The notes below the pieces were generated by a model that made no database searches, had not been told where the DNA came from, and saw nothing but the letters and a program-made list of their open reading frames with translations. From positions 1-10,629 of the forward strand of contig JASEGY010000091.1 of NCBI GenBank assembly GCA_030019105.1: 10,629 nt of DNA. The letters are read 5' to 3'. This DNA comes from a bacterium (GTDB lineage: Bacteria > UBA9089 > JASEGY01). The stretch's first letter is position 1. Each line of letters begins with the position of its first letter. Shown one piece after another: positions 2,287-9,926 of the stretch. The translations under genes were made by a program, and so were the position numbers.

Positions 2287-2314
2287 TTAAGTTTTTGAAT
2301 TAGATTACCGATAA
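2287..2314 (+). promoter_or_regulatory. Sigma-28 (FliA)-like promoter of flgM
   Basis: TTAAGTTT (2287-2294), a 12-nt spacer and ACCGATAA (2307-2314) match the enterobacterial FliA consensus TAAAGTTT-N11-GCCGATAA at 7 of 8 positions in each box, with one extra spacer base. The site is 208 nt upstream of the flgM-like ATG and points at it, which fits the known sigma-28 control of flgM in Salmonella. An overlapping sigma-70-like reading (TTGAAT-N17-TATTAG, 2295-2323) is also possible. Transcription would begin near 2320 and carry element A in the leader. Confidence 0.55.
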
Positions 2315-2340
2315 ATATATTAGATAATCATTAGATTCTA

Positions 2341-2499
2341 GTACAGATCGGCGGAAGTTCCTGGGTAGTTTCAGCATGGTTCCAGGTTCAGGGTTCCAGG
2401 TTCACGGTTCGAAGAGCGCAAGGCGACCAACCGTGAACCTTGAAGCGGGAACCTGACCACCTGATTAGAAACCCGGGAAGGACTTTTGCCGAGCAGTAC
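2341..2499 (+). other. Element A: long imperfect hairpin in the flgM leader
   Basis: The outer stem GTACAGATCGGC (2341-2352) faces GCCGAGCAGTAC (2488-2499). Inside, GGAAGTTCC faces GGAAGGACTTTT, then GTTTC faces GAAAC, and a terminal part of GTTC/GAAC words closes the hairpin (2378-2458). The basal arms resemble those of element B at 6483-6610: shared GGCG-A/G-AAGTTCCT, GTTTCAGCA, CCTGA, AAACC and GCCGAGC, while the terminal parts are unrelated. It ends 22 nt before the flgM ATG. It matches none of the riboswitch consensus sequences I know. It may be a structured leader RNA or an old MITE with imperfect terminal repeats. Confidence 0.5.
2378..2458. repeat. Inverted repeat of GGTTCACGG/CCGTGAACC words inside element A
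   Basis: The left arm (2378-2409) consists of tandem GGTTCCAGGTTC-type words. The right arm (2429-2458) carries AACCGTGAACC and GGGAACCTGACC. The same words recur at 4938-4974 and near 3274. It forms the variable tip of element A and is absent from element B, so it looks like a later insertion or local expansion. Confidence 0.75.
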
Positions 2500-2521
2500 T
2501 GGATGGATCGAGGTGAGTCCG

Positions 2522-2983
2522 ATGGAATTTGGCATATTAGGAAATTTATTCGCAACCCCTGAAGTACTGTCTAAAGAAAATAAAAAAAATGCAACCGAGG
2601 AATCATCTGTCCCTTTTGACCAGGAGGCAGAGAATATTAGAAAGAGTGAAAATAGATCTGCCGAGTTAAAGAAGACCGCCATGAAGCGAGATTTTGGCCA
2701 GGATCAGGTTACTATTTCCAAAGAAGCCAAACTTGCCTTTGAGTTAGAAAGGATCATTTGTCGGGTTCACGGCGCGCCGGATATCCGATCCGATCGGTTA
2801 GAAGTAGTAAGAGAAAAGATCGCCAATGGTAGTTTGCTTATTCGAGAAGTAAGTGAGGGAATTGCTGAGAAAATAAACGACCGGTTAGCTGGAGACGAGA
2901 TGGATTCAGCCACTCCGGTAGATCTCTCTGAACAAAGGATTCAAAATACAGTTGGCCTTATCGCTAAGTGGTTCGGACTCTGA
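2522..2983 (+). CDS. flgM: FlgM-like anti-sigma-28 factor
   Basis: FlgM binds sigma-28 (FliA) and blocks late flagellar transcription until it is exported through the finished hook-basal body. The C-terminal half fits the FlgM domain: VTISKEAKLAFELERI (about residues 64-79), then DIRSDRLEVVREKIANG (about 88-104) and GIAEKINDRL. At 153 residues it is longer than typical FlgM (about 90-100). The extra length is a charged N-terminus of some 55 residues and a tail ending LIAKWFGL. The open frame extends to a TTG at 2486, but the ATG at 2522 has a strong GAGGTGA five bases upstream and is chosen. It is the only plus-strand gene, it stands between a TPR gene and thiC, and no other flagellar gene is in view. 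The upstream sigma-28-like promoter supports the call. The FlgM domain is recognised by motif only, without a profile search. Confidence 0.8.
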   Translation: MEFGILGNLFATPEVLSKENKKNATEESSVPFDQEAENIRKSENRSAELKKTAMKRDFGQDQVTISKEAKLAFELERIICRVHGAPDIRSDRLEVVREKIANGSLLIREVSEGIAEKINDRLAGDEMDSATPVDLSEQRIQNTVGLIAKWFGL

Positions 2984-3308
2984 CAGTTTCGGTAGCCGTT
3001 CCCGGCTTGAAATTTGAAATTAGAAAGTGGGGCATCGTTTCATTTGGCTTGGAAACGACCAGAGATCGCTTTACACTTTAAAATCAATAGCCTTCATAAA
3101 AGCTAAAGGTAGTGACGCTATCCACACTCAGGAGTTAATCCTTTAGGATTTCATTATGAAAGGCTAAAGCCTAAAATCCGAAATATAGCTTGCTTTAGCT
3201 TTCGTGTGCCTCATTGTTTAAAATTGGACATTCCTACTTTCCAAATTCCAATTTCTAATTTCTAATTTCAGCATTCCGTGAACGGTTACGTTTTCTCTTC
3301 CTCAAACT
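2984..3308. other. Spacer between convergent flgM and thiC, filled with palindromes
   Basis: No ORF is supported in these 325 nt. From left to right it holds a GAAATTTGAAATTAG arm (3008-3025) and a small hairpin TCGTTTC/GAAACGA (3035-3058). A dispersed repeat follows (about 3089-3220) with internal palindromes AATCCTTTAGGATT, TTTCATTATGAAA and GGCTAAAGCC. A TCTAATTTCTAATTTC arm complementary to the first arm closes it (3253-3270). The repeat thus sits as the loop of an AAATTAGAAA-word inverted repeat. No hairpin with a U-tract is seen for either converging gene. Confidence 0.7.
3167..3220. repeat. 54-bp exact repeat, copy 2
   Basis: Identical to bases 1-54. In this copy the sequence to the left is visible and rich in short palindromes (from about 3089), so the full unit is probably around 130 bp. 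It lies 89 nt beyond the thiC stop codon, much as copy 1 lies beyond mreB. No coding potential or transposase remnant is seen in it. Confidence 0.85.
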
Positions 3309-4613
3309 TCACCCCTTTTTGTCCTCACTCAGATAAGGAGAAAAGTAGTGATCAACAATGTTAAGGGCACAACTGTCGCCGCACATAGTACAGGTTTTGG
3401 TGTTGGACGGGGATCGACTGTCTCGAATAGAGGCGGCCTGCTGAGGAAAGAGGCAGACCCTGAATTGTTCCTCCCAATCTAACTTCCGTCTGGCATGACT
3501 CATTCTCCTGTCCCTGTCTCTATCTTTTCGTTTGATCATATCTCCAATGTGGGCGGCTATTTTAGCGGCGGCCAGGCCTACTTTGACATCCTCAGGAGCA
3601 GGTAAGGCCAGGTGTTCCGGGGGGGTAACATAACAGATAAAATCCGCCCCAAAAGCGGACGAAAGAGACGCCCCTACCGCCGCTGAGATATGATCGTATC
3701 CAGCCGCAATATCGGTCGGCAACGGGCCCAACATGTAAAAAGGCGCCCCGCGACTCATTCGCTTCTGGAGGATAACGTTGGCCTCGATCTCATCAATAGG
3801 GATATGCCCCGGACCTTCAACCATCATCTGACAACCCATATCCTGACCAATCTGAGCCAATTCACAGTTTATAATCAATTCCTGGATCTGTGCCCGGTCT
3901 GAAGAATCTTCAACCGCCCCGGCTCGAAGACCATTTCCCAGACTGAGAACCACGTCGTGTTTCCTTAGAATCTCTACCACCCGGTCGAAGTGTTCATAAA
4001 GAGGATTTTCACGATTATTTTCAATCATCCAGGCGCTCATATAGGCCCCACCCCGGCTGACCAATCCGCCGTGGCGATACCCCTGACGCTTTAGCCTCTC
4101 CAGGGTAATCCGATTGATCCCACAATGAATGGCCATAAAGGAAATCCCATCTTCACATTGTTTCTCAATCACCTCAAAGAGATATTCCGGGTCCATCTTT
4201 AGCGCTGACCCTTTTTGTTTAATGGCATACAAAAAAGCCTGATAAAGGGGTACAGACCCAACCGGAAGATTTACCCCAGCCAGAATAGTTTGCCGGATAC
4301 GGTCCAGGTCCCCGCCGGTGGATAACTCCATCAAGGTGTCGGCCCCATTCTCCTCGGCTGTTCTGGCCTTAGCTGCTTCCATATCCGGATCAACGATATC
4401 CGTTGAGGTGCCAATGGAGGCATTTACCTTGGTCCGAAGTCCCCGGCCAATTCCGACTACCTTTGACTTACGGTTAAGATTATTAGGGATGATCAACCGC
4501 CCTTGCGCAATATTTTCTCTAATCTCTTCCACCGGCAGATTTTCATCAACTGCTACTCTTTCCATTTCATCCGAGATATTTCCGTCTCGGGCCAATTCTA
4601 TTTGGGTTGGCAT
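3309..4613 (-). CDS. thiC: Phosphomethylpyrimidine synthase ThiC (radical SAM)
   Basis: ThiC converts aminoimidazole ribotide to HMP phosphate, the pyrimidine half of thiamine, with S-adenosylmethionine and a 4Fe-4S cluster. The product is about 434 residues, the short form lacking the N-terminal extension of E. coli ThiC. Family motifs run in order: GIGRGLRTKVNASIGTS, DTLMELSTGGDLDRIR, FMAIHCGINRITLERL, LSLGNGLRAGAVEDSSDRAQ, MVEGPGHIPIDEIEANV, MLGPLPTDIAAGYDHI and YVTPPEHLALP. The C-terminal cluster motif reads CTMCGDSC, CX2CX3C, one residue tighter than the E. coli-type CX2CX4C. The ATG at 4613 is chosen because GGAGG lies five bases upstream; the frame extends to a TTG at 4631. No other thiamine gene is in view, and no TPP riboswitch core is seen upstream. 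The anaerobic hydroxybenzimidazole synthase BzaF is a ThiC paralogue and cannot be fully excluded. Confidence 0.93.
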   Translation of the reverse strand: MPTQIELARDGNISDEMERVAVDENLPVEEIRENIAQGRLIIPNNLNRKSKVVGIGRGLRTKVNASIGTSTDIVDPDMEAAKARTAEENGADTLMELSTGGDLDRIRQTILAGVNLPVGSVPLYQAFLYAIKQKGSALKMDPEYLFEVIEKQCEDGISFMAIHCGINRITLERLKRQGYRHGGLVSRGGAYMSAWMIENNRENPLYEHFDRVVEILRKHDVVLSLGNGLRAGAVEDSSDRAQIQELIINCELAQIGQDMGCQMMVEGPGHIPIDEIEANVILQKRMSRGAPFYMLGPLPTDIAAGYDHISAAVGASLSSAFGADFICYVTPPEHLALPAPEDVKVGLAAAKIAAHIGDMIKRKDRDRDRRMSHARRKLDWEEQFRVCLFPQQAASIRDSRSPSNTKTCTMCGDSCALNIVDHYFSPYLSEDKKG

Positions 4614-4762
4614 CTTCACCTCCGTAATCAATTATACTCGACACTGTTACAAATTGAGCTTTAATAATGTGTCCAATATCGAATATCGAACAAGGAATAA
4701 TGAATGTCGAAGGAAAAAGGGGAACAAGACCTCATAATTCGAAATTCGTTATTCGATATTCG

Positions 4763-4896
4763 GGCCTTGTCCATCGTTTGGGCCATTGGATCAATTTTGT
4801 AGTGGTCGAGCTTGCTCGACAGGACGGCAGAGCAAGCTCTGCAACTACAACACCCAATTCGGTCAAGCACTATTGGCCCAAACGATGGACAAGGCC
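4763..4896. mobile_element. MITE-like element, 23-bp perfect terminal repeats, 8-bp flanking repeat
   Basis: The terminal arms 4763-4785 and 4874-4896 are perfect 23-bp reverse complements; the outer end reads GGCCTTGTCC and the inner end TTTGGGCCA. The same 8 bases GATATTCG flank both ends (4755-4762 and 4897-4904), as a target-site duplication would. The 134-bp body codes for nothing and holds a REP-like cruciform at its centre. The flanks are themselves CGATATTC-word repeats, so the 8-bp match could be chance. The transposase family is unknown. Confidence 0.6.
4797..4850. repeat. REP/BIME-like cruciform, copy 1
   Basis: An outer stem TTGTAGT/ACTACAA encloses two hairpins, GTCGAGCTTGCTCGAC (4805-4820) and GCAGAGCAAGCTCTGC (4827-4842). 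The same plan recurs at 5034-5094. Such paired palindromes resemble REP/BIME elements, which RAYT transposases mobilise in other bacteria. No RAYT gene is in this window. This copy lies at the centre of the MITE-like palindrome. Confidence 0.75.
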
Positions 4897-6355: not shown

Positions 6356-6383
6356 TTTTGCCTGTTTCCCTCTTCAAGTAGTA

Positions 6384-6474
6384 AGAGCCTATCCCAAAAC
6401 CTCTCCCGCGTGACCAGAAACCAGGTTTCTTGAAGAAACCTGGTTTCTATCACCCCGGTTTTGGGATAGGCTCT
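6384..6474. mobile_element. MITE-like palindrome with 18-bp terminal repeats
   Basis: AGAGCCTATCCCAAAACC (6384-6401) is perfectly inverted at 6457-6474. The centre is a second perfect palindrome with 16-bp arms around a single G (6416-6448; arm AGAAACCAGGTTTCTT). If the element begins at GAGCC, the trinucleotide TAA flanks both sides, a possible short target duplication. It is non-coding, 91 bp, lies 29 nt upstream of the LCP start codon and ends 8 nt from element B. It could affect LCP expression by folding in the leader. Confidence 0.65.
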
Positions 6475-6482
6475 AAGTAATC

Positions 6483-6610
6483 CAGCTTGGCGAAAGTTCC
6501 TACCTGGTTTCAGCAGGATTCGAGGATCCAAGGGTAGATTGTGTTAATACCATGGATACCTTGATCCCTACCTGACTCCAAACCGATGAGAAATTTACGC
6601 CGAGCTGTAC
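6483..6610. other. Element B: diverged second copy of the flgM-leader hairpin
   Basis: CAGCTTGGC (6483-6491) pairs fully with GCCGAGCTG (6599-6607), allowing one G-T pair. GAAAGTTCC, GGTTTCAGCAGG, CCTGACTCC and AAACC follow in the same order as in element A. The tip pairs GGATCCAAGGGTA (6533-6545 region excluded from A) with TACCTTGATCC (about 6557-6567). The arms align with those of element A with many substitutions, whereas the tip is unrelated. No gene follows on the plus strand, so unlike A it is not an obvious leader. The strand cannot be decided. Confidence 0.45.
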
Positions 6611-6654
6611 TACCTATATATACTCAGCACGGTCATAAATAGTGATTTTGAATA

Positions 6655-9694: not shown

Positions 9695-9926
9695 CTTACC
9701 TTCCCTGCGGTGCTCATCCGCTACTACTTTGATTATGAAAATCTAATAGCACACGGATAACACGGATACTACGGATTACCACAGATAAAATCAGTATAAA
9801 TCCGTTAAATCCGTATCATCCGTGTGCTATTAAAAGGAGTAGCTATTCCCACTGATTAGGTGCTTTTCTCTAAATCAAAGTACTAACGGGTGAGTACCTT
9901 CCCTGCGGGGACTCATCTTTTTTATT
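9695..9926. repeat. Nested inverted repeat bounded by direct repeats upstream of moxR
   Basis: TACCTTCCCTGCGG occurs at 9697-9710 and 9895-9908 in direct orientation, each followed closely by CTCATC. Just inside, 9713-9734 and 9873-9894 form a 22-bp inverted repeat with 19 matches (inner end CTTTGATT). Within that, 9745-9777 and 9799-9831 form a 33-bp inverted repeat of CACGGAT words with about 28 matches. The layout suggests an inserted MITE-like element of about 180 bp whose target was duplicated. It separates moxR from the upstream ORFs and overlaps the alternative longer moxR start. Confidence 0.6.
9891..9923 (+). terminator. Terminator-shaped hairpin with T-run, plus strand
   Basis: TGAGT (9891-9895) pairs with ACTCA (9911-9915), with CC/GG and CCC/GGG pairs possible inside. 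Six Ts follow at 9918-9923. This is the shape of an intrinsic terminator for plus-strand transcription, yet no plus-strand gene precedes it. It may be accidental, arising from the direct-repeat sequence, or may mark a small unrecognised plus-strand transcript. Confidence 0.3.

Follow-up and report, generated by a model that had tools for sequence, protein, structure and literature searches.

Two hairpin elements at flgM and lytR-nadD

In the window, by which we mean the whole 10,629-nt stretch of DNA analyzed here, a long hairpin (element A) lies upstream of flgM, and a second one (element B) occupies the spacer between a lytR-type gene and nadD. The FlgM assignment is confirmed by a Pfam match, and the protein is 72% identical to its counterpart in G001, the sole same-genus genome returned in a comparison set of 61 genomes (G000, which contains the window and has 4.34 Mb in 1053 contigs, plus 60 relatives). 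Upstream of A lies what we take to be a sigma-28-like promoter; A is placed between promoter and ribosome site, as a sequence-only reading of the window had described. The limits of A and B given here follow the ends of the repeat family to which both belong and fall within 1 to 2 nt of those drawn in that reading. The features are as follows.

2287..2314, + strand: presumed sigma-28-like promoter TTAAGTTT-N12-ACCGATAA, conserved with G001
2338..2341, no strand: CTAG, left flank of A, putative target-site duplication, differing from the right flank by one base
2342..2498, no strand: element A, a MITE copy forming a hairpin, downstream of the sigma-28-like promoter and upstream of the flgM ribosome site
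2383..2455, no strand: palindromic inner core of A, GGTTCACGGTTC type
2499..2502, no strand: CTGG, right flank of A, putative target-site duplication with one mismatch
2522..2983, + strand: flgM, anti-sigma-28 factor (PF04316, E = 3.6e-6)
6379..6479, no strand: neighboring unrelated hairpin element, frame Y, with GCCTATCCCAAAACC ends, carrying a 33-nt palindrome that is also the tip of many family copies
6477..6480, no strand: GTAA, left flank of B, no duplication
6481..6609, no strand: element B, older-subfamily copy between the lytR-type gene and nadD
6610..6613, no strand: CTAC, right flank of B, no duplication

The sequence-only reading had offered two explanations, an undescribed structured leader RNA or an old MITE family, and had proposed a comparison with Rfam, a covariance-model search of relatives, a covariation test, and a count of copies near flagellar genes; dispersed copies with flank duplications and no significant covariation were named beforehand as the mark of a plain MITE. 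Its claim that A and B are related is borne out by a two-sequence alignment, in which the blocks GGCG.AAGTTCCT, GTTTCAGCA, CCTGA, AAACC, and GCCGAGC.GTAC follow in the described order, and by the left arms, which share 75% identity over 51 nt. Predicted folds are strong (−75.6 kcal/mol for A, z = −8.2, and −52 kcal/mol for B, z = −6.5, both versus shuffles), which is what any pair of inverted arms would give. The Rfam scan, taken to an E value of 1, returned nothing at either element; its 15 matches were all under gathering scores and were mostly microRNA models on simple hairpins.

Other repeats are present in the window. Further spacer hairpins are found at 9709-9741/9866-9898 (around 9744-9832), 4763-4785/4874-4896 (around 4797-4850), and 3008-3030/3248-3270, two of the three enclosing another hairpin, and the palindrome at 9744-9832 looks, to the eye, similar to the hairpin computed as the inner one in the G001 lytR-nadD spacer. 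The region upstream of thiC (3309-4631, − strand), followed to 4930, also holds hairpin repeats and lacks any TPP riboswitch match with an E value of 1 or lower. Positions 1-54 recur without change at 3167-3220; this 54-nt direct repeat belongs to another dispersed repeat, which can be recognized by eye in further G000 loci, L013 among them.

Family size and distribution

Blast searches against G000 returned 108 matches for A and 48 for B, many of the former covering the inner core alone, which is a separate repeat. A 20-nt end consensus (at most 3 mismatches) found 70 ends in G000, where the reversed pattern found none, and 27 in G001; in the window it has 3 matches, compared with 0 in 200 dinucleotide shuffles. 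Outside the genus we observe eight end matches in five genomes (one or two each) versus nine matches of the reversed control in seven genomes. One outside match, without a partner end, has a single mismatch (G004:C78:49300-49319, locus L105) and lies in a genome from another family of the phylum; it is harder to call chance than the others.

A covariance model trained on 13 aligned copies had hits in just the two genomes of this genus out of 61: 59 in G000 and 26 in G001, part of them to the inner core alone or to another core-carrying hairpin family. Under stricter filters that lose weak matches, it found nothing in the 59 other genomes, G004 included. An exact end-pattern scan of the species-genome collection, from which own and near-identical records may have been left out, also returned no match. 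Within the genomes searched, the family appears to be restricted to this genus.

Insertion signature

Pairing of ends yielded 31 pairs in the fetched G000 loci, of which 30 were kept (73 to 271 nt) and one false 1611-nt pair was dropped, and 16 kept copies in G001 (71 to 386 nt). From G001, five 31-nt pairs that overlapped themselves were dropped, as were L119 and L130, with 7 mismatches at one end, and the longer of the alternative ways to pair the ends of L112 and L116. L112 (1416-1520) and L134 (926-1066) were kept despite one 7-mismatch end each, and copy g1C90 was added from the end check at a transposase locus.

In G000, 14 of 30 copies have identical 4-nt flanks immediately outside TAC...GTA, compared with a re-paired mean of 3.9 and with none of 20000 permutations attaining 14; in G001, 8 of 16 do (re-paired mean 1.7; P = 0.00005). 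The remaining 16 and 8 copies, respectively, have no exact 4-nt identity. At other flank lengths (2, 3, and 5 to 9 nt), identity is seen for no copy in G000 and for at most 2 in G001. All but one of the 22 exact duplications read NTAN (21/22), and both CTAC and GTAG are present as direct repeats flanking copies, which favors duplication over a palindromic recognition motif. The identical flanks are, at the family level, a target-site duplication, of which neither A (CTAG/CTGG) nor B (GTAA/CTAC) has an exact example.

Short elements with terminal inverted repeats (30 and 16 paired copies), a family-level duplication, dispersed copies (70 and 27 ends), and orthologous G001 loci without the element together indicate that A and B very probably belong to one family of non-autonomous DNA transposons (MITEs). 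Covariation on the 13 aligned copies is weak (see below). The label "old" suits B better, as its core aligns with the core of G001 copies, and A less so, its nearest match being in its own genome (G000:C144:1717-1872, 91% identity). Copies would have inserted at TA-centered sites, with cuts at TAC...GTA, by a DDE-type transposase presumably supplied in trans.

Two PF01609 transposase genes each were found in G000 and G001, along with one PF01797 (Y1_Tnp) gene in G000. In this search of two transposase families, family ends bound none of the five loci; an unrelated complete family copy lies about 0.5 kb from one of the G001 genes. We guess at an IS5-type DDE enzyme because the duplication is 4 nt long and TA centered, a likeness to IS5-group insertion sequences, whose target-duplication motif is given as YTAR (PMC10359306). 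In contrast to that group, YTAR describes only 10 of the 22 exact duplications, and the family ends are absent from all four PF01609 genes.

Shared arms and exchangeable cores

Each copy is a pair of ~36-nt inverted arms, beginning TACAGCTCGGCGGAAGTTCC (consensus), that flank an exchangeable and usually palindromic core, complete copies being mostly 70 to 200 nt. The arms are common to the copies and the cores differ, in keeping with the earlier observation that the tips of A and B are unrelated. Core types comprise a 33-nt palindrome (AGAAACCAGGTTTYTTSAARAAACCTGGTTTCT), GGTTCACGGTTC-type hairpins (as in A), the core common to B and G001 copies, an CTTCCCGAAAGCTTCAAGCTTTCGGGAAGG type, and an CCCACGCTCTGCGTGGG type. 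Within the A subfamily (8 copies), the core loop is found both ways round relative to the arms; the GGTTCACGGTTC-type core of A recurs in other copies in either direction and has many further core-only matches.

The 33-nt palindrome has 180 sites in G000. Its copy in the window (AGAAACCAGGTTTCTTGAAGAAACCTGGTTTCT, 6417-6449) lies in frame Y, and the palindrome is found as the tip in five outer hairpins defined by motif; furthermore, two chimeric elements with this core carry arms from different families. In one test, 8 of 29 passed a threshold that same-frame flanks had inflated. These modular tips, in which unrelated palindromic cores sit at the hairpin apex, are the unusual part of the system and worth following. 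New cores may have come in by nested insertion, or else copies with a common core may have recombined. Tentatively, and with the odds somewhat against it, the short palindromes of this genus could be a pool of exchangeable cassettes, entering unrelated hairpin MITEs at the apex by insertion or through recombination there and giving rise to nested hairpins and mixed-arm chimeras, with the tip a preferred target or exchange point and not a random landing site.

Orthologous sites in the congener

Upstream of flgM, G001 has kept the promoter (TTAAGTTT-N12-ACCGATAA) and the GAGGTGAGT ribosome site, and A is absent from the leader. Its place is taken by another hairpin (arms at 1194-1222 and 1394-1422 of L120) with a smaller hairpin inside and with GTGAGAAT on either side (1180-1187 and 1429-1436). 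These borders are only suggestive of an insertion because the 8-nt repeat is one of four families of 8- to 10-nt direct repeats in that stretch; the leader of the congener may have been hit independently by a different hairpin repeat (L120:1180-1436). B is likewise absent from the G001 lytR-nadD spacer, where one hairpin is computed to lie within another and a third is seen between them by eye. Both G001 spacers contain other repeats, so neither offers a clean single-copy empty site, and on two genomes A and B are not shown to be ancestral at their sites.

With respect to the remaining copies, a search for the empty site of a well-duplicated one (C111) found none, its flanks not being conserved in G001. 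Of the 30 G000 copies, all but A and B had their flanks compared with part of the fetched G001 loci, and three of these 28 matched (C251, C1053, and C437). The relative of C437 is without the element but diverges beyond the gene, and that of C1053 has an element ~35 nt past the gene. In both genomes a copy is found just downstream of a related epimerase-type gene (L071 near 1501 and L109 near 1585), with differing cores; one old insertion common to both genomes would account for this, as would two separate ones.

Gene context

Relative to mechanical open reading frames (ORFs) no shorter than 100 aa, the 30 G000 copies comprise 14 flanked by tandem ORFs, 3 by convergent and 3 by divergent ones, 7 that overlap an ORF, and 3 that have no neighbor. 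The corresponding counts for the 16 G001 copies are 5 tandem, 1 convergent, 2 divergent, 5 overlapping, and 3 without neighbor. A start codon faces a copy within 400 nt in 39 ORFs, 30 of which were scanned, with 23 giving Pfam matches at E up to 1e-6; the nine outside that scan are the FlgM, TPR, and LytR-type proteins of the window and six short ones. The scanned facing genes are unrelated to each other and include those for FtsZ, RNA polymerase alpha, IF-2, a class II (D, K, N) tRNA synthetase, radical SAM proteins, and asparagine synthase. None of the 30 scanned ORFs is a recognized flagellar gene, barring an FlgD Ig-like domain in a lamin-tail-domain protein.

Leader RNA, co-option, and REP-like alternatives

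We weighed the MITE reading against the proposal that A is an undescribed structured leader RNA controlling flgM, with B a second member of the RNA family. The position of A between promoter and ribosome site and its very stable fold (z = −8.2) would suit such an RNA, as would the outer stem, which is held in A and B with different bases. Among the 13 aligned copies (12 distinct), moreover, 99% of cells pair, versus at most 61% with partners slid, and one tip pair is double-changed in 2 sequences, so that the count of double-changed cells, all of them at this pair, is reached by only 7 of 500 shuffles. Selected pairing should, however, make arms match better within a copy than across copies. 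This is not observed when arms are oriented, with orientation fitted to arm similarity: in G000, 24.13 of 34 positions pair within and 23.96 between copies (P = 0.28; 0.55 with G-U pairs), and in G001, 21.38 and 20.70 (P = 0.07; 0.14 with G-U pairs). The oriented test was used in place of the unoriented one because the copies have two arm types; the latter gave 24.7 within versus 25.6 between of 36 in G000 (P = 0.98) and 21.9 versus 22.7 in G001 (P = 0.88), with g1C3 (71 nt) too short to enter. The compensatory outer-stem changes between A and B stand, but across the family the arms of a copy pair no better than re-paired controls. Covariation is weak as well: double-sided changes affect 1 of 32 pairs, 45 of 500 shuffles attain the covariation score, and 489 of 500 attain the number of further pair types. 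Together with the missing A in the G001 leader, the unrelated facing genes (23 of the 30 scanned matching Pfam), and the empty Rfam result, this makes the leader RNA exceedingly improbable. In general terms, a conserved position with covarying pairs, as expected of a conserved structured RNA, was not found, in a comparison whose power is limited by there being two carrier genomes.

REP/REPIN systems with RAYTs consist of short palindromes with a GTAG tag at one end and a Y1 transposase in the genome. That the elements here are REP/REPIN-like palindromes moved by such an enzyme, instead of DDE-type MITEs, would agree with their being palindromic, often intergenic, and multi-copy, with GTAG at some ends, and with the one Y1_Tnp gene in G000. 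GTAG and CTAC are, however, direct and not inverted flanks, the arms are ~36 nt with 4-nt duplications, and G001 carries the family with no Y1_Tnp match, so we regard this origin as very unlikely. A further alternative starts from the MITE reading and adds that A was co-opted after insertion, its hairpin now tuning flgM mRNA stability, attenuation, or translation. A ends 23 nt upstream of the flgM start codon, within the presumed transcript, and bacterial MITEs are reported to change expression when transcribed (PMC3049150). In a single predicted fold of 2321-2560, the presumed A-containing leader, A forms one long hairpin that brings 2323-2336 beside the ribosome site, which pairs with this leader sequence upstream of A (unpaired probability 0.11 to 0.35 at 2512-2518). 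Since the ribosome site is mostly paired in this fold, an effect of A on flgM translation is possible. Against co-option, A is carried by one of the two genomes compared, the supporting fold is one prediction on a presumed transcript, and the right end of A shows divergence equal to that of other copies. We consider co-option rather unlikely and the position of A at flgM most likely incidental: by insertion, A would have put a strong hairpin into the presumed flgM 5' leader and would not be part of an ancestral flgM control element.

Relation to known systems and implications

We conclude that these are copies of a real and new family within a known kind, the MITEs, and that the family bears a clear insertion signature; its sequence has no match in Rfam or in the species-genome collection (near-identical records possibly left out). 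Correia/NEMIS, RUP, and ERIC MITEs are likewise ~100 to 200 nt long, with inverted ends, TA at the termini, and stem-loop transcripts, primarily intergenic and non-autonomous (PMC2229807, PMC3049150); the family here shares the length, inverted ends, terminal TA, primarily intergenic placement, and non-autonomy. Judged by these descriptions, it is set apart by the 4-nt NTAN duplication, by cores exchanged with unrelated outer hairpins, and by a source insertion sequence not having been found. Compared with pneumococcal BOX, RUP, and SPRITE elements, what is nested here is a palindrome, found at the tips of several hairpin frames unrelated to one another, a recurrent placement that the consulted portions of those accounts do not describe. 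As candidates for mobile units that choose a palindrome as a target, the cores recall insertion sequences such as IS1397 and ISPsy8, which target REP palindromes (PMC1525189); there, full insertion sequences enter REPs, whereas here short palindromes occupy the tips of MITE hairpins.

These results remove a false flagellar-riboregulator candidate and describe, for this genus, a MITE family with a 4-nt TA-centered duplication. In addition, the presence of one 33-nt core in five hairpin families and two chimeras makes it a testable question whether hairpin tips attract small palindromes, with a bearing on how intergenic hairpin repeats diversify and on how spurious "structured RNAs" originate.
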